Assembly: GCF_003967175.1 (NCBI RefSeq)
Contig: NZ_AP018553.1
Span: 1,054,001 to 1,118,000 of the forward strand
Source: Sulfodiicoccus acidiphilus
GTDB lineage: Archaea; Thermoproteota; Thermoprotei_A; Sulfolobales; Sulfolobaceae
Length of the DNA: 64,000 bases
Direction of reading: 5' to 3'
The notes below the pieces were generated by a model. It was not told the DNA's origin and searched no databases. It saw only the letters and a list, made by a program, of their open reading frames with translations. The translations under genes were made by a program, and so were the position numbers. Shown in pieces: positions 3,704 through 21,897 of the stretch (positions are counted from its first letter, which is position 1; each line of letters starts with the position of its first letter).

Positions 3704-4971
3704 ATGACACTAGATGATTTCTACTCTATAAAGAACGTTGACGGTCTCGAGATAGTTGATTCGAGAGGAAACCCTACTATAAGGGTCTTTGTGAGGACAG
3801 TAGGTGGAATTGCTGCATACGGCGATGCGCCCGCCGGAGCCTCTAAGGGAAGTAGAGAGGCTATAGAGGTGCGGGACCCAGACAGGGTGGGAGGTATGGG
3901 AGTTGAGAGAGCTGTAAAGAACGTGAGGGATTACGTTTATCCTGCAATCAGGGGCATGGATGTGCGCGACCAACTCGCGATAGACCACACCTTAATTCAG
4001 CTTGACGGTACTCCTAACAAGTCTAAGATAGGAGGGAACGTTACAATAGCCACTTCTATTGCAGTAGCAAAAGTAGCCGCCAAGGCCCAGGGAGTAGAGC
4101 TCTTCAATTACATAGGAGGTTCCTCAGCTAATCTAATTCCGGTACCCCTCCTTAACGTAATAAATGGAGGCCTTCATGGAGGGAATAAACTGAAGGTTCA
4201 AGAGTTCATCTTGATCCCAGCGGGGTTCGGGGAGTTTTCCGAGTCTTTGATAGCCAGCGTAGAAATATACAGGAAACTGAAACAGGTAATAATTTCGAAG
4301 TATGGTAAGATATATAGTGGTCTCGGAGACGAAGGAGGTTATTCTCCCCCTTGGAGTCCGTGGACCAGGCCCTGGAACTCCTTTCTTCAACTATAGAGGA
4401 GCTCGGGTTCAAAGGAAAAGTATCGCTTGGAATAGATGCTGCTGCCACTGACTTTTTCAATACTTCCACTGAAAAGTATGAGATAGATGGTAGGGCGTTA
4501 TCGCCAGGAGAGCTCTTAGACTTCTACATCGAACTGGCCTCAAAATATGATTTAGTTTACATGGAGGATCCTTTTAACGAGAACGATCTGCAGAGCTTTG
4601 CCGAGCTCAACTCGAAAGTGCAAAATATGGTGATAGTGGGAGACGACTTGTACACCACCAACGTCGAGTACCTCAGGAAGGGGTTGAGACTCAGGGCTAC
4701 TGGGGGTGTGATAGTTAAACCTAACCAGGTCGGAACACTGTCAGAGACCTATCAGTTCTGCAAGGAGGCTCTGGATGGTTTCAACAAAATAGTAGTTAGC
4801 CATAGAAGTGGGGAGACCGAGGACAGTTTCGTGGCAGACTTAGCGGTAGGGCTCTCGGCTCACTTCGTGAAGACCGGGGCCCCAGCTAGGGGGGAGAGAA
4901 CCTCAAAGTACAACAGACTCCTTGAGATCGAAAAAATCCATCACTTGAGGTATAGGGGGAAGTCCGCTTAG
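3704..4971 (+). CDS. eno: Enolase, interrupted by one -1 frameshift
   Basis: Enolase (2-phosphoglycerate to phosphoenolpyruvate), a glycolytic and gluconeogenic enzyme. The frame opens at the ATG at 3704 and reads through GDAPAGASKGS and GDEGGYSPP, then runs out of frame at a run of five C (4346-4350) to a stop at 4396. The second half continues in the -1 frame as LESVDQALELL, with MEDPFNEND, VVKPNQVGTLSE (catalytic lysine) and SHRSGETEDSF. Adding one C restores a normal protein of about 422 residues. Both halves are well conserved, so this is more likely a sequencing error than a dead gene. The gene is convergent with the next, overlapping it by 4 nt. Confidence 0.93.
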
Positions 4972-5219
4972 GGAATCAATATTCCTATTACAACTAGTGC
5001 TACGCCTAGTATCGCAAGAAAGAAGAGGAATTCTTTTGTTGTCATAGATGGTATAGCTCTGAAAGCCTTTACGGCGCCGAAGACGAGAAAGCCTAAGAAC
5101 AACGCGAAGACTATCCCAAGCCCTACGAGTACGAGGACGTCGGATACTCCAGAAACAGACGATATGTGCAGCATTTTCCCTATCTGGGAGATAGTAGTAC
5201 TGAGTGTCGATATGCTCAA
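4968..5219 (-). CDS. Two-TM small membrane protein beside the cdv operon
   Basis: 83 residues (or 68 if it starts at the internal MLHISSV). Two strong hydrophobic helices are separated by a short basic and polar loop: VLVLVGLGIVFALFLGFLVF, then FLFFLAILGVALVVIGILI. No catalytic motif and no recognised family. Its 3' end overlaps the enolase stop by 4 nt. It is divergent from cdvA across about 170 nt that hold both promoters. A link to cell division is suggested only by position. Confidence 0.6.
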   Translation of the reverse strand: MSISTLSTTISQIGKMLHISSVSGVSDVLVLVGLGIVFALFLGFLVFGAVKAFRAIPSMTTKEFLFFLAILGVALVVIGILIP

Positions 5220-5340
5220 GCTATCACAGAAATTAGTTTCTCCCGTTGCAAACCTTATAACGGTTGAGGTGAATCCTCCTTGCCTTGTGATGAAGGTTAA
5301 AAGCGCCTAACTGTGAGGAGACTCCGCTGGCTGAAGGGTG

Positions 5341-5390
5341 TAAGTACTTATAAGGCTTTCACGTGTAACTGAATTTTTCGAGGAGTGTTA
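5341..5390 (+). promoter_or_regulatory. cdvA promoter with 10-bp palindrome at the TATA box
   Basis: A perfect palindrome TAAGTACTTA (5341-5350) overlaps the TATA-like CTTATAAGG (5347-5355). With the usual ~25-nt spacing, transcription would start near 5378, giving a ~12-nt leader that carries GAGGAG just before the cdvA ATG at 5391. The palindrome is a plausible operator. Cell-cycle repression of cdvA by an RHH factor (aCcr1) is known in Sulfolobales, but whether this palindrome is its site here is inference. Confidence 0.5.
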
Positions 5391-6101
5391 ATGCCGCTTT
5401 CCCAAGATATATTGGTAAGGTATGTTGGAAGGAAGGTTAAAGATGTTTACGGAAGGGATTTCGGTTACCTCATTCACGTTTACAGCGAAATAGATGGCCA
5501 AGTAACTGGAGTGGAGATAGTCAATGGCTCTGTGTTTCAGACCATAGACCCTGCTAGGTTTAAGGTGGAGGGGGAGTCACTTTACGTTCTTCCCGAGTGG
5601 AAGGCTGAGGCCATGAGGGTCGTCGGACTTCTAGATAAGATAAGGAAGAGGCAGAAGGCGCTGGAGGAGCTTTATAGCAAAGGGGAGATAAATAAGTCCA
5701 TGTACGACGACATGAAAAGGAAGCTGGACTCAGAGGCCATAAAACTAAAGGAAGATCATATGAGGATCAGAAATAAGCTGAGGGGAAGATTGAACGAGAT
5801 CGAAGATCAGTTAGTCCAAATCGATAAAGCGATGACAGCGGTGAAGGTTAGCTACATAGCATCGGAGACCCCAGAGGAACAGTACAAGAGCTCCGTCGAG
5901 GTCCTGAGACAGGGGAGGGAGAGCTACGGTCTTGAGAAGGACGACATAAAGAAGACTCTGGATAGGCTTGATTCTCAGGATAAGGAGCCCGTGGAAATAA
6001 AGCCCTCACCAATAGCAGTCCCCAGCGAACCCAAAAAAGAGGAGCAATCGATACAACTACCTTTCCCTATTAAAGTTGTAAATAACACCAACACGCTCTG
6101 A
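5391..6101 (+). CDS. cdvA: Cell division protein CdvA
   Basis: Membrane- and DNA-associated scaffold of the archaeal Cdv division machinery, which recruits ESCRT-III (CdvB) to mid-cell. The N-terminal ~75 residues form a PRC-barrel-like beta domain (VRYVGRKVKDVYGRDFG). A long coiled coil follows (KIRKRQKALEELYSKGEI onward), then a flexible proline-rich tail. The tail ends in LPFPIKVV, which fits the CdvA motif (E3B) that binds the CdvB winged-helix domain. I chose the ATG at 5391 over the GTG at 5385 because GAGGAG sits just upstream at 5380-5385. First gene of the cdvABC operon; the gap to cdvB is 9 nt. Confidence 0.95.
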   Translation: MPLSQDILVRYVGRKVKDVYGRDFGYLIHVYSEIDGQVTGVEIVNGSVFQTIDPARFKVEGESLYVLPEWKAEAMRVVGLLDKIRKRQKALEELYSKGEINKSMYDDMKRKLDSEAIKLKEDHMRIRNKLRGRLNEIEDQLVQIDKAMTAVKVSYIASETPEEQYKSSVEVLRQGRESYGLEKDDIKKTLDRLDSQDKEPVEIKPSPIAVPSEPKKEEQSIQLPFPIKVVNNTNTL

Positions 6102-6110
6102 GGGGTTTTC

Positions 6111-6881
6111 ATGCCTGTATTGGACAAGTTTCCCTTCATTAAGAGGGGGAACTCTAAGAAGGCCCAGTTGGGGCTCCTTCTGGAGGAGATCTCAGTTAGG
6201 TTGAAGGATCAGCAGATGAAGCTGGACGAGGCCATGCGTAGACTTAAGGATAGAGACAAGGAGCTCTTCGACCGGGTCGTCAGGTCCCAGATGGAGTCAG
6301 ACGTGGCCAAGGCCGCCATATACGCCGAGGAGATCTCCGACATAAGGAAGATGTTGAAGATCATATACACAGCATCCTTAGCTATTGAGAAGGTTCGTCT
6401 TAAGTTGGAGACGGTGCAGGAGTTGCAGGGACTGTCACTTGTATTGCTCCCCGTGCTTAAGATATTGGGTGGATTGAAGGAGCAAGTAAAGGGCATTGCG
6501 CCCGACGTAGCTGTGGCCTTAGACTCTATCACTAGTAGTGTTAACAGCATAGCTGTGGAGACAGGTATACTAAACGAGAAGGCAGTAGTCCCAGCAATTG
6601 TGGACGAGCAAGCGAAGAAGATTCTAGACGAAGCACAGAAAATGGCCGAGAATAAGTTGAAAGAATCTCTGCCAGCACTCCCCCAGCCACCCTCCGAACC
6701 TCCAAAGGTTAAGACATCAACTAAGAAGTTCGGCGAAGAGGACCTTCTAAATTACGTAAGTAGAACTAACGGCTTCATTGATGTGGAACATGTAAGTAAG
6801 ATCTACGGGGTCGATAAGGAAGAAGTAATGGAGCTCTTGAGGTTACTAGCTAGAAAGGGAGTGATAGTGCTAGAGGAGTGA
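6111..6881 (+). CDS. cdvB: ESCRT-III-like division protein CdvB
   Basis: Polymer-forming ESCRT-III homologue that constricts the division neck. The N-terminal ~165 residues are charged helices typical of the ESCRT-III core. A proline-rich linker at about residues 185-200 ([12 protein letters not shown]) matches the MIM2-type motif that binds the MIT domain of CdvC. The last ~50 residues ([18 protein letters not shown] and on) form a winged helix that binds the CdvA tail. This winged helix marks it as CdvB rather than one of the shorter paralogues. Translation starts at an ATG preceded by GAGGGG. It lies 12 nt upstream of cdvC. Confidence 0.95.
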
Positions 6882-6893
6882 GGGGCCAATAGG

Positions 6894-8000
6894 TTGAGCG
6901 GGCAAGTGATGTTAGAGGAGATGGCGAGAAAGTATGCCATAGAGGCAGTCAAGACAGATAAAAGTGGAAAAAGGGAGGAGGCGATAGGCTACTATCAGAA
7001 GGCCATAGAAGTCCTAACTCAACTCATATCGCTATACCCTGATTCGGTTGCTAAACATGCCTACGAGCAGATGGTTGCGGAATATAGAAAGAGAATAATG
7101 CACTTGAAGGAATTTGCGACTGACCCCGAAGGAGGGAATGATAAGGTAGAGGAAGAGGTTATAATAAAGGAGAAGCCCAAGGTCACCTTTAAGGACATAG
7201 TCGGTCTGGAGGATGTGAAGGAGGCGTTGAGGGAGAGCATAGTTTATCCCTCCAAGAGGCCTGACCTTTTCCCACTGGGCTGGCCACGTGGTATACTAAT
7301 GTACGGTCCCCCAGGGTGTGGGAAAACCATGATCGCCGCTGCAGTTGCGAACGAAATCGAAATGGAATTCCTCCATGTTGACGCGGCCAGTATAATGTCG
7401 AAATGGTTAGGGGAGGCCGAGAAGAATGTTTCAAAGATATTTAAGAAAGCAAGGGAGATCTCTAAGTCAGAGAAAAAGCCAGTCGTTATATTCATAGACG
7501 AGATCGACGCTCTATTAGGAACTTTCGCCTCGGAGAATGGTGGGGAGGCTAGGGTGAGGAATCAGTTTTTAGGGGAGATGGATGGCATGCTAGACAAGAG
7601 CGAGACGTACAGCGTTTACGTGATTGGTGCCACCAACAAACCTTGGAGGTTAGACGAACCTTTCCTGAGGAGGTTCCAGAAGAGAATATACGTCAGACCA
7701 CCAGACTACCAACAGAGACTTTCGCTCCTCTCCTTCTATGCGTCCAAGATAAAGATGGAGGGGGTGGATCTCCAAGAGTTAGCTAAACAGACCGAAGGCT
7801 ATGTGGCAAGTGACATTAGGGACATAGTGCAAGCAGTTCACATAAAGGTGGTGAAGGAGATGTTTAAGAACGGACTTTCGGAACCACGGGCAGTAAGAAT
7901 GGAGGACTTTATGGAGGTATTGAGGGACAGGAAACCTAGCGTCAATCAGGAGCTAATAAAGATCTACGAAGCTTGGCACGAAAAATTCAAAGCACTCTAA
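6894..8000 (+). CDS. cdvC: Vps4-like AAA ATPase CdvC
   Basis: AAA+ ATPase that remodels or disassembles ESCRT-III polymers during division. The N-terminal ~75 residues are an MIT domain ([20 protein letters not shown]). The AAA core carries Walker A GPPGCGKT (about residues 138-145), Walker B VIFIDEID (D202/E203), and the arginine-finger region [10 protein letters not shown]. The C-terminus [13 protein letters not shown] is typical of CdvC. Start TTG at 6894 gives [10 protein letters not shown]; the homologous N-terminus and the preceding GAGGGG support it, though the ATG five codons later is possible. Third gene of the operon. Confidence 0.96.
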
Positions 8001-15581: not shown

Positions 15582-15698
15582 AATATGGCGGAGAGATAAA
15601 AAATTTGAGCAAGTCGATAGGAGAGAGTTTAGGTTCGTACCATATTCGTACCAGAAACCAATTCATCGGTAGAAGGAGTTGCTCGCGAATTTATCTTA

Positions 15699-17040
15699 AC
15701 AGGGGGGTTCAAAGGGGGCGGAAGACCCCTTCCGTCAGGGAGGGGATGGATAGCCCCCTTTGTATAATTAAATAACTGTCGCGCAAGAACCCTCCTGATG
15801 CCCGACGTAGGATTTCGCTTTCGTGCCTATACCAACGAACGGACGTTGAGGGCGTTAAAGGCCCAGTTAAGGATGGCGTGTGAGCTGTACAACACCCTGC
15901 GTTGGGCAGACTCCTATTTCTATGCAAGAGATGGAAAAGGTCTGAACCAAACCCAGTTGAGGCAACTCGCCTTGGACCTGAGGAAGCAGGACGAGCAGTA
16001 TCAACAACTTCACTCTCAAGTTGCTCAGAACGTCGCGGATCGCTTCTACGAGGCTAGGGAGAGGTTCCTCGACGGTCTATCGCGTTTCCCCAAGGAGAGG
16101 AAGCCCCACAAGTACTCTTCCCTGGTCTACCCTCAGAGCGGATGGAAGGTGTTGAGTTCAAGGGAGATAAGGGGGAAGAGCAGGGAGGCGAGGGAGGGCC
16201 ACCCCAAGAAGTTGATGAAGTTGAACCTTTCCCACCTGGGAGTCTTCAAGGTCCTCGTGCATAGGGACTTCCCCCTCGACAAGGTGAAGAGGGTGGTCGT
16301 GAAGTTGATGCCTTCGGGGAGGGTCTACATCTCCTTCGTGGTCGATTACGAGTTCCCAAAACTACCTCAGGTCAACAAGGTAACTGCACTCGATGTGGGC
16401 ATCAAGACCCTCATCATGACGTCCGATGGGGAGTACTTCCCCAACGTGAAGCCTTACGAGAAGGCCCTGTTGAAGGTGAGGCACCTCCACAGGGTACTGT
16501 CCAGGAAGGTTTTCCTATCCAAGAACTGGTTCAAGGCGAAGGTCAAGTTAGCCAAGGCCTATGAGCACCTCAGGAACCTGAGGAAAGACATCTACATGAG
16601 GCTGGGCAAACACTTCGCAAGGAACTACGACGTCCTCGTCATGGAGGACATAAACGTCAAGAAGCTCGTGGGCAAGTCCCCCAGGAAGTTGAGGATGAGG
16701 CTCCACGACGTCGCCTTCCACGAGCTGAATATCTCGAAGTACCAGATGGAGAAGCACGGTAAATCCATCGTCCTCGTGGACCCAGCCCACACGTCCAAAA
16801 CCTGCGCCAAATGCGGTTACGTGAGGGAAGACCTAACCCTCCTCGATCGAGTGTTCTCCTGTCCACGATGTGGATGGATCACAGACCGCGACTACAACGC
16901 CTCCCTGAACATCTTACGTAGATCGGGGTCGGTGCGACCCTCAGTGCCTGTGGAGCTCCGCCCTCTACCGGTACTTCGGTACTGGCAAGGTGGAGCTGGG
17001 AAGCAGGAAGCCCCGTCCGTAAGGGCGGGGTGAGTTCACT
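15699..17040 (+). mobile_element. TnpB-only (IS200/IS605, IS1341-type) element, apparently intact
   Basis: The left end begins after TTATCTTAA with a GGGGGTT tract and a long hairpin (about 15712-15760) framed by GGGGGC and GCCCCC. A TATA-like stretch (ATAATTAAATAA) follows. The right end is a perfect 8-bp hairpin CCCCGTCC/GGGCGGGG with loop GTAA (17011-17030), then GTGAGTTCAC. No tnpA is present. The right end and the last part of tnpB are where the omega (guide) RNA is encoded in this family, so this copy is the reference for the shorter relics elsewhere in the window. Boundaries are approximate. Confidence 0.85.
15798..17033 (+). CDS. tnpB: RNA-guided nuclease TnpB of IS200/IS605-type element
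   Basis: 411-residue TnpB (OrfB), ancestor-like relative of Cas12, which cuts DNA under the guidance of an omega RNA made from the element's 3' end. N-terminal helical/wedge domain, then the RuvC core: Asp199 in [10 protein letters not shown], Glu283 in LVMEDINVK, and the third Asp in [10 protein letters not shown]. The four-cysteine zinc finger (CAKCG and CPRCG) lies between RuvC II and III. All catalytic residues and the zinc finger are intact, so it is probably active. The C-terminal tail EAPSVRAG is encoded by the right-end hairpin itself. The ATG at 15798 follows the left-end hairpin and promoter. Confidence 0.95.
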
Positions 17041-17608
17041 GGTGAGAAACTCATGGATCTCTAGCTCTACAACACCTTTGCTACGGCAAGGTGAAACATA
17101 TGTTCTCTATGTTTATAAAAATGTATTGGTTTATATTAAATCCATAGTAAATGGTACTTTAAAGGGGCGTAAAATTGTTACTGACGATACGGATGCCCCA
17201 AACTAAAGTAATCCACGTGATGTGTGAAACGGAGGATGTTGGATGAGGTAGTGACATATTCTCCCCGCTATCGAGAGAGCATGCACCAGCTTCGTGTCTT
17301 CGGGGCTTGTTTTGTGGAACACCATCTCCACCCGTAGTGAAGTAGAAAGCTCCTTGCCTCTAGGGTAGTTTCCATCTTACCAGAAACACATTGCTTCGAA
17401 TCCAAAACCTCCTCTAGGACGTCCTTATGATTGGGACGGTTGCCGTAGCGCTCAATAACGTGATAACCCCCTACGGATGCGAGATGTCGAGCCCAACTGT
17501 GGTAGCAAGATTCGCTGCGAACCTTCAGACGTTCCTAAATGATGAGTATGGCAGAAAGCATACATAATAATTCTAGATGGAATTATTACCTAAACAACAC
17601 TTAAAGGG
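17041..17608. other. Gap of about 570 nt, no gene recognised
   Basis: Short AT-rich stretch after the TnpB element, then sequence with only short broken frames on both strands. The last 40 nt hold the promoter of the DUF2589 cassette. Nothing else is identifiable. Confidence 0.4.
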
Positions 17609-17642
17609 AAGATTTATTTATTAGTCTCTGCAAGAAGACTAG
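17609..17642 (+). promoter_or_regulatory. Promoter of the DUF2589 cassette
   Basis: GATTTATTTATTA at about 17610-17622 is a good TATA candidate about 25-30 nt before the ATG at 17643. This predicts a leaderless or nearly leaderless transcript. No ribosome-binding site is seen before the ATG. Confidence 0.5.
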
Positions 17643-18194
17643 ATGAGCAGCTCTGGTACAGGGTCCCAGCTGGGACAGGAGTTAGCTACAGTTCCTTTTG
17701 ACCAGATGATAAAGAACATCCTACTCGCGATGGTGGCAGGACAGAACGCTGCCAACGCAGCGTTCATAGCGGGAGTTAACGATCTAGCAAACGCTACACT
17801 TACCATAAAATATTCTACTTCTAGTGGAAGTCAGAAAGGCTCAAACACAGAAGTGACGGGCAACGCCTTAGCATTTGGTATCCTTCCCATCCTACTAGAG
17901 ATATCAGGCGCAGTGATCACGATCAAGATAGACCTCACGTTCGTCTCTCAGGTCCAAGAAAGCGTACAGGTCAACGCTGGAGTGGAGGGGCTTGCAGATT
18001 TCCTGCTGTTCAGCGCTTCGGTTAACGCTAGATATCAGAACACGTACTCTTTCTCAGCGGACGCCTCGAGTTCCATCGAAATTCACGTGTCACCAGCACC
18101 TCCACCTCAGCCCATAATGGAGGTAATAAAAGCCGTCGTTGCGGCAAATCCGCCATCGTCCACCTCAGGGGGCGGTAGCACATCAGGGAGTTAG
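17643..18194 (+). CDS. DUF2589-like protein, first gene of a three-gene cassette
   Basis: 183 residues, rich in Ala, Ser, Val and Ile, no signal peptide. The plan resembles DUF2589, a family of unknown function: an N-terminal helix with VPFDQMIKNILLAMVAGQNA, alternating beta strands (ATLTIKYS; LPILLEISGAVITIKIDLTF), a second set of strands, then SIEIHVSPAPPPQPIMEVIKAV. The tail is Gly/Ser-rich. The DUF2589 assignment is from remembered family pattern and needs a profile search. A gene for a small protein starts 16 nt after the stop. The island location next to a TnpB element suggests acquisition by transfer. Confidence 0.65.
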   Translation: MSSSGTGSQLGQELATVPFDQMIKNILLAMVAGQNAANAAFIAGVNDLANATLTIKYSTSSGSQKGSNTEVTGNALAFGILPILLEISGAVITIKIDLTFVSQVQESVQVNAGVEGLADFLLFSASVNARYQNTYSFSADASSSIEIHVSPAPPPQPIMEVIKAVVAANPPSSTSGGGSTSGS

Positions 18195-18210
18195 AACTAG
18201 GTAACAGGTT

Positions 18211-18474
18211 ATGCGAATTAGAGTGGTGAGGGGAGTGAGATTATCAACTCTTCTCCTGGCGCTTGCTGTGCAGCTTAGTCAAGGTACTTCTGAAGCGTTG
18301 GAGAGATCTCAACCCAAACAACTCATCCCCAACAAAGTAGGAGTCTCCATACCTATACACATAGTAGATACCTCACCTCTCAAAGTATCTCTGTTCAACG
18401 CCTATGTAGCCAATTACTACAACATCGACCCCTCAGGTAGGGTAGAGGTAGAACTCACTAGAACTAAAAGGTGA
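18211..18474 (+). CDS. Small protein of the DUF2589 cassette, function unknown
   Basis: 87 residues. The N-terminus is basic with a short hydrophobic run (LSTLLLALAVQL), then a beta-rich part (VGVSIPIHIVDTSPLKVSLF and VEVELTRTKR). The hydrophobic run could be an amphipathic or signal-like helix; there is no clear cleavage site. It lies between the DUF2589 gene and a coiled-coil gene that it overlaps by 4 nt, so all three are one transcription unit. I do not recognise its family. Confidence 0.6.
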   Translation: MRIRVVRGVRLSTLLLALAVQLSQGTSEALERSQPKQLIPNKVGVSIPIHIVDTSPLKVSLFNAYVANYYNIDPSGRVEVELTRTKR

Positions 18475-18890
18475 ACTATACGTCTACAACTGGAACCCCC
18501 GCAGGAGAACTAGAGGAGATAGCGAAGAGGATGACAATGTTGGAACAAGAACTCAAGTCCCTGCAGGGACAGATAGCAGAATTAGAGTCAAAACCGACGG
18601 CTCTCGAACTAAGGAGATTGACTTACTCTGGCTTGATGCTCGCACTTCAGGCAGAACTCTTAGAGGTAGATAAAGTAGCTCAAAGTCAATCTGAGGGCCC
18701 TACCTCATACGTCGTTTCCGAGTTCACTTTAACTATAAAGGCATTGGCTTCTGTGGACGAGAAGGGTAGACCGATTTTGGCCTTCCCGATCCAAGGAGAG
18801 GTCGATCCAGGACAGTTAAGCTCGTTAACAATCAGATTGAGCCCAGTTCCTAGGTTCACAAAACAGATACAGAGAAAGAGCAGCGCCTAA
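18471..18890 (+). CDS. Coiled-coil protein of the DUF2589 cassette
   Basis: 139 residues from a GTG that overlaps the preceding stop by 4 nt. Residues ~10-45 form a heptad-like coiled coil (LEEIAKRMTMLEQELKSLQG). The rest is predicted beta strands (YVVSEFTLTIKALASVDE; SSLTIRLSPVP), with a style similar to the strands of the DUF2589 protein. A basic tail (KQIQRKSSA) closes it. No known domain is recognised. It probably forms oligomers and may assemble with the first two products; this is inference from the operon and the coiled coil. Confidence 0.6.
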   Translation: MNYTSTTGTPAGELEEIAKRMTMLEQELKSLQGQIAELESKPTALELRRLTYSGLMLALQAELLEVDKVAQSQSEGPTSYVVSEFTLTIKALASVDEKGRPILAFPIQGEVDPGQLSSLTIRLSPVPRFTKQIQRKSSA

Positions 18891-19086
18891 GAAGATCCAA
18901 AAATCCTAACTAATATCGCAAATGGAGTAAAGAGACGATAGCATTTTTCCTTAACACCGCAATTTCATGGGGAACAGGAGAGGTAGTTGAGGGGTGCTGA
19001 GAGAACTCTCGACATTGATATTCAGAGGGAAGCTAGGGCCCACAGCGATGAGGTGCTCATCAATAGTTCTTTCACTACTATTCACG

Positions 19087-19380
19087 AGTGAACTACCCTG
19101 CCCTCACGGACGGGGCGTCATCGCGGTGAGTCCCGCTCCTCGGAGGAAGCTCGATCTCCTTACGTAGCGGAGGTTCCGTGGAACCTTTCTGTGAATAGCG
19201 TGGAAGGGAGGTCACGGAGGGTTTCCTCTCCACGGGCGTGAGTTCCCCCAGTCCCGAGGGTGCGACCCAGCTCTCACAGTAGAGGTCGTAGAAATAGTAT
19301 TTTGATGACCGTAAAGAGGTTTACATAAGGGGGCTGTCCGTCCCCACGGAAGGGGACTTCCGCCCCCTCAACCCCCGTTA
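19087..19380 (-). mobile_element. Internally deleted family-1 TnpB element
   Basis: Reading the minus strand: left-end hairpin (19329-19367, GGGGGC/GCCCCC outer stem, GTCCCC/GGGGAC inner) preceded by an AACTTAACGG flank, then about 64 codons in an intact frame matching only the TnpB C-terminal tail (ESWVAPSGLGELTPVERKPS ... DDAPSVRAG, stop at 19093-19095), then the right-end hairpin and a GTTCAC-type end. The RuvC and zinc-finger coding region is gone. Only the ends and the guide-RNA-encoding 3' region are kept. Confidence 0.75.
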
Positions 19381-19804
19381 AGTTAAAGTTCATTATTACG
19401 ACAAGGCCCTCATAGTATTAGCGAGCTGGCGTACCTGAAAATCGATACTTCTCGAACCTCGACTTTTTCAGAAAGGCTCAGTTCGTAGTCTGAGAACCCT
19501 CATGACCCTCCCCTCTTATGGACGAATTAGTTGTGCGCCTCGGGACGTTGCTCGGGAGAGTCTATGTCTAATATCGCTTCAATGGAGACGTCCAGATAAC
19601 GCTCACTTCCTCCGTGACAGTGCCGCAGCGCAGACATATACTTGGTCAGACAGGTGAAGGGGGGACAAAGTCCCAGTGAGCACAGGCACATGGAGGCCAC
19701 ATAGATATAGCTATTAGATATAGCCGTCCCATGGTGTGAGAGGTAGGTAAGGAAGGGGATCCTCAAGGCATACCTTCCTGGACGACTTCGCTACGAGGGT
19801 GGAG
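19381..19804. other. Gap of about 420 nt between two element remnants
   Basis: Sequence between the 19087 and 19805 elements. Frames are short and unrecognised. I see no hairpin ends, tRNA or promoter with an attached ORF. Confidence 0.35.
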
Positions 19805-20148
19805 AGTCTGACTTCCTCCCCGCCCTGGAAGGGACGAGGGTTCCCATCCAGAGGGCTCGTCGTTCCCACCATCGGTTCGGGTTTACATGTCTCGTTTGGT
19901 GGGCAGTCGAGTGGATCAGAGATCCACTCCCATTTGAAGAGGAGGGGACTTTCACCCATTACGTCTAGTCCCTTAAGAGAAGGAGATAATAGCTGCTCCT
20001 CCCTCAGTCCCATTAAACCTTAGATCGAGCTGGGGAGGAGCGTCGTTAGTACCACTAAGAGAAATTTCACAAAGAAGTATAAATATGAGGGGGCTATCCG
20101 TCCCCGCCGTGAAGGGCGAGGCTTTCCGCCCCCTTAACCCCCCTCTCT
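19805..20148 (-). mobile_element. Short family-2 element, TnpB-type ends without nuclease
   Basis: Minus strand: flank TTTACA, left-end hairpin (about 20089-20130, GGGGGC/GCCCCC-like outer stem), TATA-like ATATTTATA, then ~250 nt closely similar to the copy at 29033, then a right-end hairpin and GGAAGTCAG. Inside, GAGTGGATC and GATCCACTC form a 9-bp stem with a 3-nt loop, and CCCACC/GGTGGG can form a second stem. The frame ending in RALWMGTLVPSRAGRKSD looks like a TnpB C-terminal tail. No RuvC coding region. Confidence 0.7.
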
Positions 20149-20419
20149 GTAAACGTAATTGAGCGCAGGTCGAAGGAACTACCGCGCCATCTTGTTGCCC
20201 TTACCAGGAAACTCTGTATGAAAGGGCTGAACGATACGAGTTAGGTCCAGGGATCTGTATTCGGCACGGATCTCGCTCTAACCTACAAGGGCCGGCTGGT
20301 GGTTCTCCTCGAGGAGTGGAAGAGGGTTCTCCTTTCCGTTAAGCATGTCATCTCATGTTTACGTTAAATTCTACAATTTCTCCTCCCCATCGACAGAACT
20401 CACATAAAACTAAGGGAAG

Positions 20420-20671: not shown

Positions 20672-21175
20672 GTGAACTCACCTCGCATTCGCGGATGGGG
20701 CTTCCTGCTTCATAGCCTCACCTTACCCAACGGGTAGAGGGCTCCACAGCTCTGAGGACCCCCTACCCCCGATCCCCTCAGGTCTAACGACGTGTTGTAG
20801 TCACGATATACTACCCAACCGCACCAGGAACAGGTGAAGGTACCGTCAGTCAGGTCTTCCCTCACGTATCAGCAATTAGTACACGCCTTGGAGATGTACG
20901 CTGGGCCCACCATGATCGATTTCTCATCTTACTTCTCCATTTGGTACTTCATCAGTGAGTTGAGTTCGTGGAAGGGAAACTAGTCCCCGTGAGTCGAGGG
21001 GACTTGCCACAAGTCGTTTAACGTTAATGTCCTCCATCGCGAGGACGTCGTAGTTCTGGGCTAACCACCTTAGCGGAACCCCACGTCGAGTATAGACTAT
21101 CTCGAGAAATTATATTTAAATATAGGAAGCCGTCCATCCTTACGGATGGAGTCTTCCTCCCCTTAAACCCTCGAT
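20672..21175 (-). mobile_element. Decayed TnpB element with partial tnpB
   Basis: Minus strand: flank TTATCTTA, left end (21121-21170), TATA-like TATTTAAATATA, then about 400 nt of disrupted tnpB. LAQNYDVLAMEDINVKRL, the RuvC-II Glu region, is recognisable near 21000-21070, followed by stretches matching the zinc-finger and C-terminal tail regions with stops and shifts. The right end GTGAGTTCACC is at 20672-20682. The 5' half of the ORF is deleted and the rest is broken. Confidence 0.75.
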
Positions 21176-21250: not shown

Positions 21251-21493
21251 ATGAGGGTAGTAACAATAAAGGTAAAAGATGAGTATTACGATGTTGCGGA
21301 GGAGATGGTAAAAGTAGGATTAGCGAAATCCAAAAATGAGGCCTTTAACTTGATCATATCATACGGTGTGGGCAGAGTCGTGGAACAAATAAAGAGGAGG
21401 AAGAGGATAGAGGAGTTGACGGAGAAGTGGTTAAAGGAAGGTTTGCCGTTCGATTTACCTACCTCGAGTGAAGTAATAAGTGACAGGGAATGA
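21251..21493 (+). CDS. VapB-type antitoxin
   Basis: 80 residues. The N-terminal strand and helix-turn-helix-like part (MRVVTIKVKDEYYDVAEEMV ... SKNEAFNLIISYGVGRV) resembles the DNA-binding half of archaeal VapB antitoxins. The charged, amphipathic C-terminus (KRRKRIEELTEKWLKEGLPF) would wrap the toxin. The stop overlaps the start of the PIN-domain gene by 4 nt (ATGA), the usual arrangement of a toxin-antitoxin pair. Located in the accessory island between TnpB relics. Confidence 0.8.
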   Translation: MRVVTIKVKDEYYDVAEEMVKVGLAKSKNEAFNLIISYGVGRVVEQIKRRKRIEELTEKWLKEGLPFDLPTSSEVISDRE

Positions 21494-21897
21494 AGTATTA
21501 CATTGATACGAGCCTCGCCGTCGCGTTAGTTTACGAGAGGGACCCCAACCACGAGAGAGCGGTAAAGGTATATCCTAAAGACGGTGAGAGGGTTATTAGC
21601 ACGTTGGTCTTGGCCGAACTATATTCAGTTTACTCGAGGAGAATGAACATTTCCGATGAAGAATTAGAGGCACTGGTTAACTATACCGTCATTAAATGCG
21701 GGTCTAAATTGGAGGAAGTAGAATTCGATAAAGTAGTAGATTACGCCGTAAAGATCTCCAACATGGTGAAGTTGAAGACGTTGGATTTGCTCCATCTGGC
21801 AACAAGTGTCCTCATGGGGAGCGAAATATTGAGCCTCGATGAGGAAATATTGGAAGCCAAGAGGAGGTTAAAGGTTAATTCGCTGGAGGGTCATTAA
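21490..21897 (+). CDS. VapC-type PIN-domain ribonuclease toxin
   Basis: 135-residue PIN domain. Metal-binding acidic residues are visible: Asp6 in YYIDTSLA, Glu in STLVLAELYSVY, Asp in LKTLDLLHLA, and a further acidic site near EILSLDEEILE. Members of this family cleave tRNA or rRNA and are held in check by the adjacent VapB. All expected acidic positions are present, so the toxin is probably functional. It overlaps the antitoxin gene by 4 nt. Confidence 0.85.
   Translation: MKYYIDTSLAVALVYERDPNHERAVKVYPKDGERVISTLVLAELYSVYSRRMNISDEELEALVNYTVIKCGSKLEEVEFDKVVDYAVKISNMVKLKTLDLLHLATSVLMGSEILSLDEEILEAKRRLKVNSLEGH

Follow-up and report, generated by a model that had tools for sequence, protein, structure and literature searches.

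A three-gene DUF2589-like cassette of Sulfodiicoccus acidiphilus recurs in other archaea and possibly encodes a cytoplasmic complex with Trypco2-like partners

Three small genes located in a 64,000-nucleotide stretch (the window, bases 1,054,001-1,118,000) of the chromosome of the hot-spring archaeon Sulfodiicoccus acidiphilus HS-1 were found in the same order and tightly spaced in 13 of the 13 archaeal loci compared, S. acidiphilus and 12 others. With a probability of about 0.5, the three genes constitute one operon and their products form a cytoplasmic complex in which a DUF2589 protein is joined by two Trypco2-like partners. The conserved order, the domain content and the selective constraint were observed, and from them we infer the assembly of the complex and its tethering. 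DUF2589 has no assigned function, and an operon with fixed partners turns this lone domain into a complex that can be tested.

The genes lie on the same strand, gene 2 following gene 1 after a 16-nt gap and gene 3 overlapping gene 2 by 4 nt, as described in the first-pass annotation (Table 1). The open reading frames are not a product of chance, since the 12 further loci hold the same genes in the same order. The promoter of their own that had been claimed for these genes was also recognized, by eye only, as a TATA-like sequence, TTTATTTATTA, at about 17613-17623, about 25 nt 5' of the ATG at 17643 and preceded by a purine-rich stretch. This upstream sequence is compatible with a leaderless archaeal promoter, from which a nearly leaderless transcript would be produced. 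Gene 2 probably starts at GTG 18235 and not at 18211, because this codon matches the N-termini of the relatives and is preceded by GGTGA (18225-18229) five bases ahead; the eight N-terminal residues dropped in this way are missing from most relatives. The hydrophobic N-terminal run noted earlier in the gene 2 product does begin with hydrophobic residues, but across the family it looks like an amphipathic helix, with a maximal 19-residue hydropathy of 1.47, under the usual level of a membrane helix.

Table 1. Features of the three-gene locus and its flanks. Positions are those of the window.
Feature	Position	Strand	Description
TnpB (OrfB_IS605 / Cas12f1-like TNB) insertion sequence	15687..17044	+	Left bound, outside the cassette; Pfam
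Putative promoter	17605..17642	+	Purine-rich BRE-like stretch and TATA-like TTTATTTATTA; by resemblance to the consensus only
Gene 1, DUF2589-family protein, 183 aa	17643..18194	+	Long N-terminal helix, then beta-strands (low-confidence model, pLDDT 58)
Gene 2, short Trypco2-like protein, called as 87 aa	18211..18474	+	79 aa from the likely GTG start (18235)
Gene 3, N-terminal coiled coil and Trypco2-like core, 139 aa	18471..18890	+	Without C-terminal helix-hairpin-helix
Miniature element, about 300 bp	19087..19388		Right flank, outside the cassette; about a dozen genomic copies, most at least 90% identical
Miniature element, about 346 bp	19807..20154		Right flank, outside the cassette; about 30 copies or more, identity mostly 87-97%

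The loci compared come from S. acidiphilus, Bathyarchaeota, Nitrosocaldus, a Nitrososphaera MAG and one further family. In the 12 other loci the gap between genes 1 and 2 ranges from -4 to 25 nt and that between genes 2 and 3 from -17 to 28 nt; in L025, L050 and L063 gene 3 again overlaps gene 2 by 4 nt. The S. acidiphilus proteins share about 42-50% (gene 1), 13-29% (gene 2, in the same position) and 25-35% (gene 3) identity with their counterparts. A phylum-wide search with the DUF2589 profile yielded one locus barely above the cut-off (L025, 23.3 versus 23 bits) and three below it; the DUF2589 proteins of these four loci are 49-51% identical to gene 1 and are followed by gene 2 and gene 3 relatives. 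The co-occurrence of genes 1-2-3 at 12 further loci bears out the conserved cassette of the first-pass annotation, a claim that had been staked beforehand on such co-occurrence.

A gene 1 match was found in 11 of the 398 sampled genomes of the phylum, the weakest of them (G163) being doubtful and partial. The operon is present in four of seven Nitrosocaldaceae genomes and in 8 of 91 genomes of one Bathyarchaeia family, and is thus accessory, with a patchy distribution in a minority of Bathyarchaeia and ammonia-oxidising archaea. Gene 1 is single-copy in the S. acidiphilus genome, and no credible match to it was found in 97 other genomes of the order Sulfolobales or among the viral contigs searched. 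Weak matches of genes 1 and 3 in other Sulfolobales were attributed to chance, as they were partial, contained stops in some cases and had E-values no better than 0.006.

Most relatives carry beside the operon a winged-helix protein of about 300-360 aa (identified by an HTH_5 match in one relative and by sequence likeness in the others), and in many there is also a further DUF2589 gene, grouped as a separate clade in the tree (100/100). Neither gene was found in S. acidiphilus. In addition, 12 of the 13 gene 3 proteins end in a C-terminal helix-hairpin-helix (HhH) domain (DUF4332, 2e-14; HHH_5, 3.8e-11), S. acidiphilus gene 3 being the exception. A frameshift behind its short length was ruled out, as no coding trace of HhH was found near 18890 in any frame. 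The S. acidiphilus cassette is therefore a stripped-down copy, lacking the regulator, the second DUF2589 gene and the HhH of gene 3. On the Bathyarchaeota contig of L063, the gene right after the operon (5090-7066) encodes metallophosphatase, beta/gamma-crystallin and DUF433 domains in one protein.

Gene 1 is, as judged from profile comparisons, a distant member of DUF2589 belonging to an archaeal branch. Aligned by hhalign with DUF2589 (PF11655), the gene 1 family obtained a score of 52.1 (P 1.7e-7), the best of 60 column-shuffled controls reaching 21.7, and 11 of the 22 rows of the family alignment matched PF11655 at E<=1, two of these rows being bona fide DUF2589 sequences added for comparison. 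Similarity to DUF2589 was thus found, in agreement with the first-pass annotation, whose statement that such proteins are known mainly from bacteria is too narrow because this branch is archaeal. The N-terminal PFxxMI...QxxA helix and the strands that follow are common to gene 1 and to bacterial and archaeal DUF2589 proteins, whereas the conserved GNALAFGILP and APAPPPxP motifs and the archaeal distribution set the gene 1 branch apart. The S. acidiphilus gene 1 protein alone lies below Pfam detection, with no match to PF11655, and single-sequence searches of the three products in Pfam, NCBIfam, PHROGs and PDB gave nothing credible; taken alone, these blanks would wrongly have led to rejection of the DUF2589 lead. 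A NCBIfam CofH match of gene 1 was discarded (E 0.0024; 16.8 bits, with the cut-off at 374). Gene 1 has no PDB relative by sequence or by fold, Foldseek gave no fold match with the weak AlphaFold models (pLDDT 58 and 72), and the open-access literature searched gave no function or fold for DUF2589.

The first-pass annotation had reported no known motif in these products, but a Trypco2-like domain common to genes 2 and 3 emerged from the profile comparisons. The gene 2 profile aligned with the core of gene 3 with a score of 28.8 (shuffled controls <=16.7; P 1.1e-4 to 2e-4), which indicates that both share one domain. This domain weakly resembles Trypco2 (PF19631), above shuffled controls and at low hhalign probability: the Trypco2 profile scored 19.9 against gene 2 (60 shuffles <=13.3; hhalign probability 6%) and 21.5 against the gene 3 core (60 shuffles <=12.5; hhalign probability 13%). 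Five of the 13 gene 2 members matched PF19631 weakly (best E 1.5e-4), the relative in L064 reaching 20.6 bits, under the gathering cut-off of 24.2, and S. acidiphilus gene 2 alone gave no match. As in Trypco2, a helix precedes the strands in gene 2 and in the gene 3 core, and the model of gene 3 (pLDDT 72) displays three strands and two helices (10-40 and 52-73).

Pairs of closely related loci gave a dN/dS of about 0.03-0.05 in gene 1, 0.07-0.16 in gene 3 and 0.07-0.37 in gene 2. These values speak for the relatives and not directly for the S. acidiphilus copy, to which the searches brought up no close relative. Gene 1 is therefore under very strong purifying selection in the relatives, and gene 2 much less. 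Such constraint on gene 1 is compatible with a densely packed or oligomeric part, and an unrecognised role in binding or catalysis would explain it just as well. In the complex that we favour, the DUF2589 protein, whose amino-acid changes in relatives occur at about 3% of the silent rate, would be the core oligomer, and the two Trypco2-like proteins would act as adapters binding to it. Gene 3, through its coiled coil and HhH, would anchor the assembly either to itself or to nucleic acid, nucleic-acid bridging applying to other archaea, and in most other archaea having the operon its expression would be controlled by the neighbouring winged-helix protein. The self-assembling structure suggested at first is plausible, and a fuller arrangement is put forward only tentatively: two Trypco2-like proteins would join a DUF2589 oligomer, and one of the two would link it to DNA or RNA through the coiled coil and HhH, under a dedicated regulator. 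If true, the operon would open DUF2589, and the role of Trypco2-type adapters outside bacterial conflict systems, to genetic study.

The profile evidence connects the DUF2589 operon to Trypco2, so far known as an adapter of bacterial conflict systems, where it is described as the neighbour of trypsin in MoxR-vWA ternary systems and takes its name from these adjacent trypsins (PMC7159879, PMC10907252). The cassette might accordingly be read as a conflict or defence module, in which the Trypco2-like proteins would be adapters, the part that Trypco2 plays towards the trypsin-like effectors of bacterial VMAP systems, and DUF2589 would sense or scaffold. The accessory, patchy distribution of the operon agrees with this reading, which nevertheless appears unlikely. 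Inspection of the neighbourhoods by eye brought up no gene for a peptidase, a MoxR ATPase or a TIR or vWA protein, and none of the trypsin-like peptidase, MoxR ATPase and vWA components of the VMAP ternary system was noticed adjoining the loci (by eye, with a profile scan of part of the neighbours). Many neighbouring genes are housekeeping genes, PADLOC was blank for the three S. acidiphilus products, with weak matches of the relatives' regulator and of one gene 3 protein, and the extreme conservation of gene 1 is unlike that of an arms-race sensor. The defence device proposed in the first-pass annotation thus received no direct support, the Trypco2 resemblance being the only hint of it.

Other DUF2589 clusters differ from the cassette in their partners. 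Bacterial DUF2589/Trypco2 neighbourhoods were sampled on four plasmids and two phage or viral contigs. The bacterial clusters L066, L074 and L075 also group DUF2589 genes with other small proteins, but the partners are others and, unlike in the archaeal loci, a muramidase or peptidoglycan-binding gene is near. Genes for muramidase, an M15-like peptidase (by eye) or peptidoglycan-binding proteins were observed near bacterial DUF2589 in L066, L067, L074 and L075, and a patatin-like gene (by eye) adjoins DUF2589 in L067. The archaeon Archaeoglobus fulgidus also has a series of short DUF2589-related genes, AF0414-AF0417, which, compared here by description only, are known as up-regulated on lactate (PMC3949148).

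The flanks of the cassette were confirmed as a TnpB element on the left and, as the element sequence on the right, two multi-copy miniature elements. The TnpB insertion sequence has three more near-full copies in the genome (68-78% identity), and both miniature-element families apparently have end sequences in common with it. The block at about 17045-19087 sits inside a tRNA-Thr to tRNA-Tyr interval, and the same interval of the sister species has no cassette and contains apparent transporter-gene fragments. With two genomes compared, a gain in S. acidiphilus would be the simpler reading, and a loss in the sister species is possible. A direct repeat (15554/20492) was ruled out as an attachment site, as it consists of the 5' end that two tRNA genes have in common.

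The operon might work elsewhere and be in S. acidiphilus a non-functional or decaying import that survives in part. The insertion elements all round the cassette would fit this, as would the missing regulator, HhH domain and second DUF2589 gene and the long branch of S. acidiphilus gene 1 in the tree (1.07 changes per site). Against it, the three reading frames are intact, the overlap of genes 2 and 3 persists, as does the promoter-like sequence, and gene 1 still keeps the identity to other gene 1 proteins given above, so that decay is a doubtful explanation. A surface or adhesion apparatus, suggested by the beta-rich gene 1 sequence with its Ser/Tyr-rich strands and by the hydrophobic start of gene 2, is highly improbable and the earlier proposal of an adhesion device unsupported, because no convincing signal peptide or membrane helix was found; moreover, the gene 2 N-terminus is not membrane-like across the family, and the HhH domain of the gene 3 relatives is of nucleic-acid-binding type, which points to the cytoplasm.

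Elsewhere in the window, enolase is split over the overlapping frames 3704-4396 and 4351-4971, which cover Pfam Enolase_C positions 3-74 and then 77-279. The split therefore indicates an indel, either a real frameshift or a sequencing error, the assembly being PacBio-only. The chromosome of S. acidiphilus HS-1 comprises 2,353,189 bases (PMC6647314) and the genome paper counts 244 pseudogenes, so the same caution applies to other broken genes of the window. A degraded tnpB remnant was observed on the minus strand at 20672-21056, with inverted matches to TnpB at 15798-17033, and a VapBC-like pair at 21251-21897 consists of a PIN-domain toxin gene (PF01850, 8.7e-18) with a small partner gene directly 5'.
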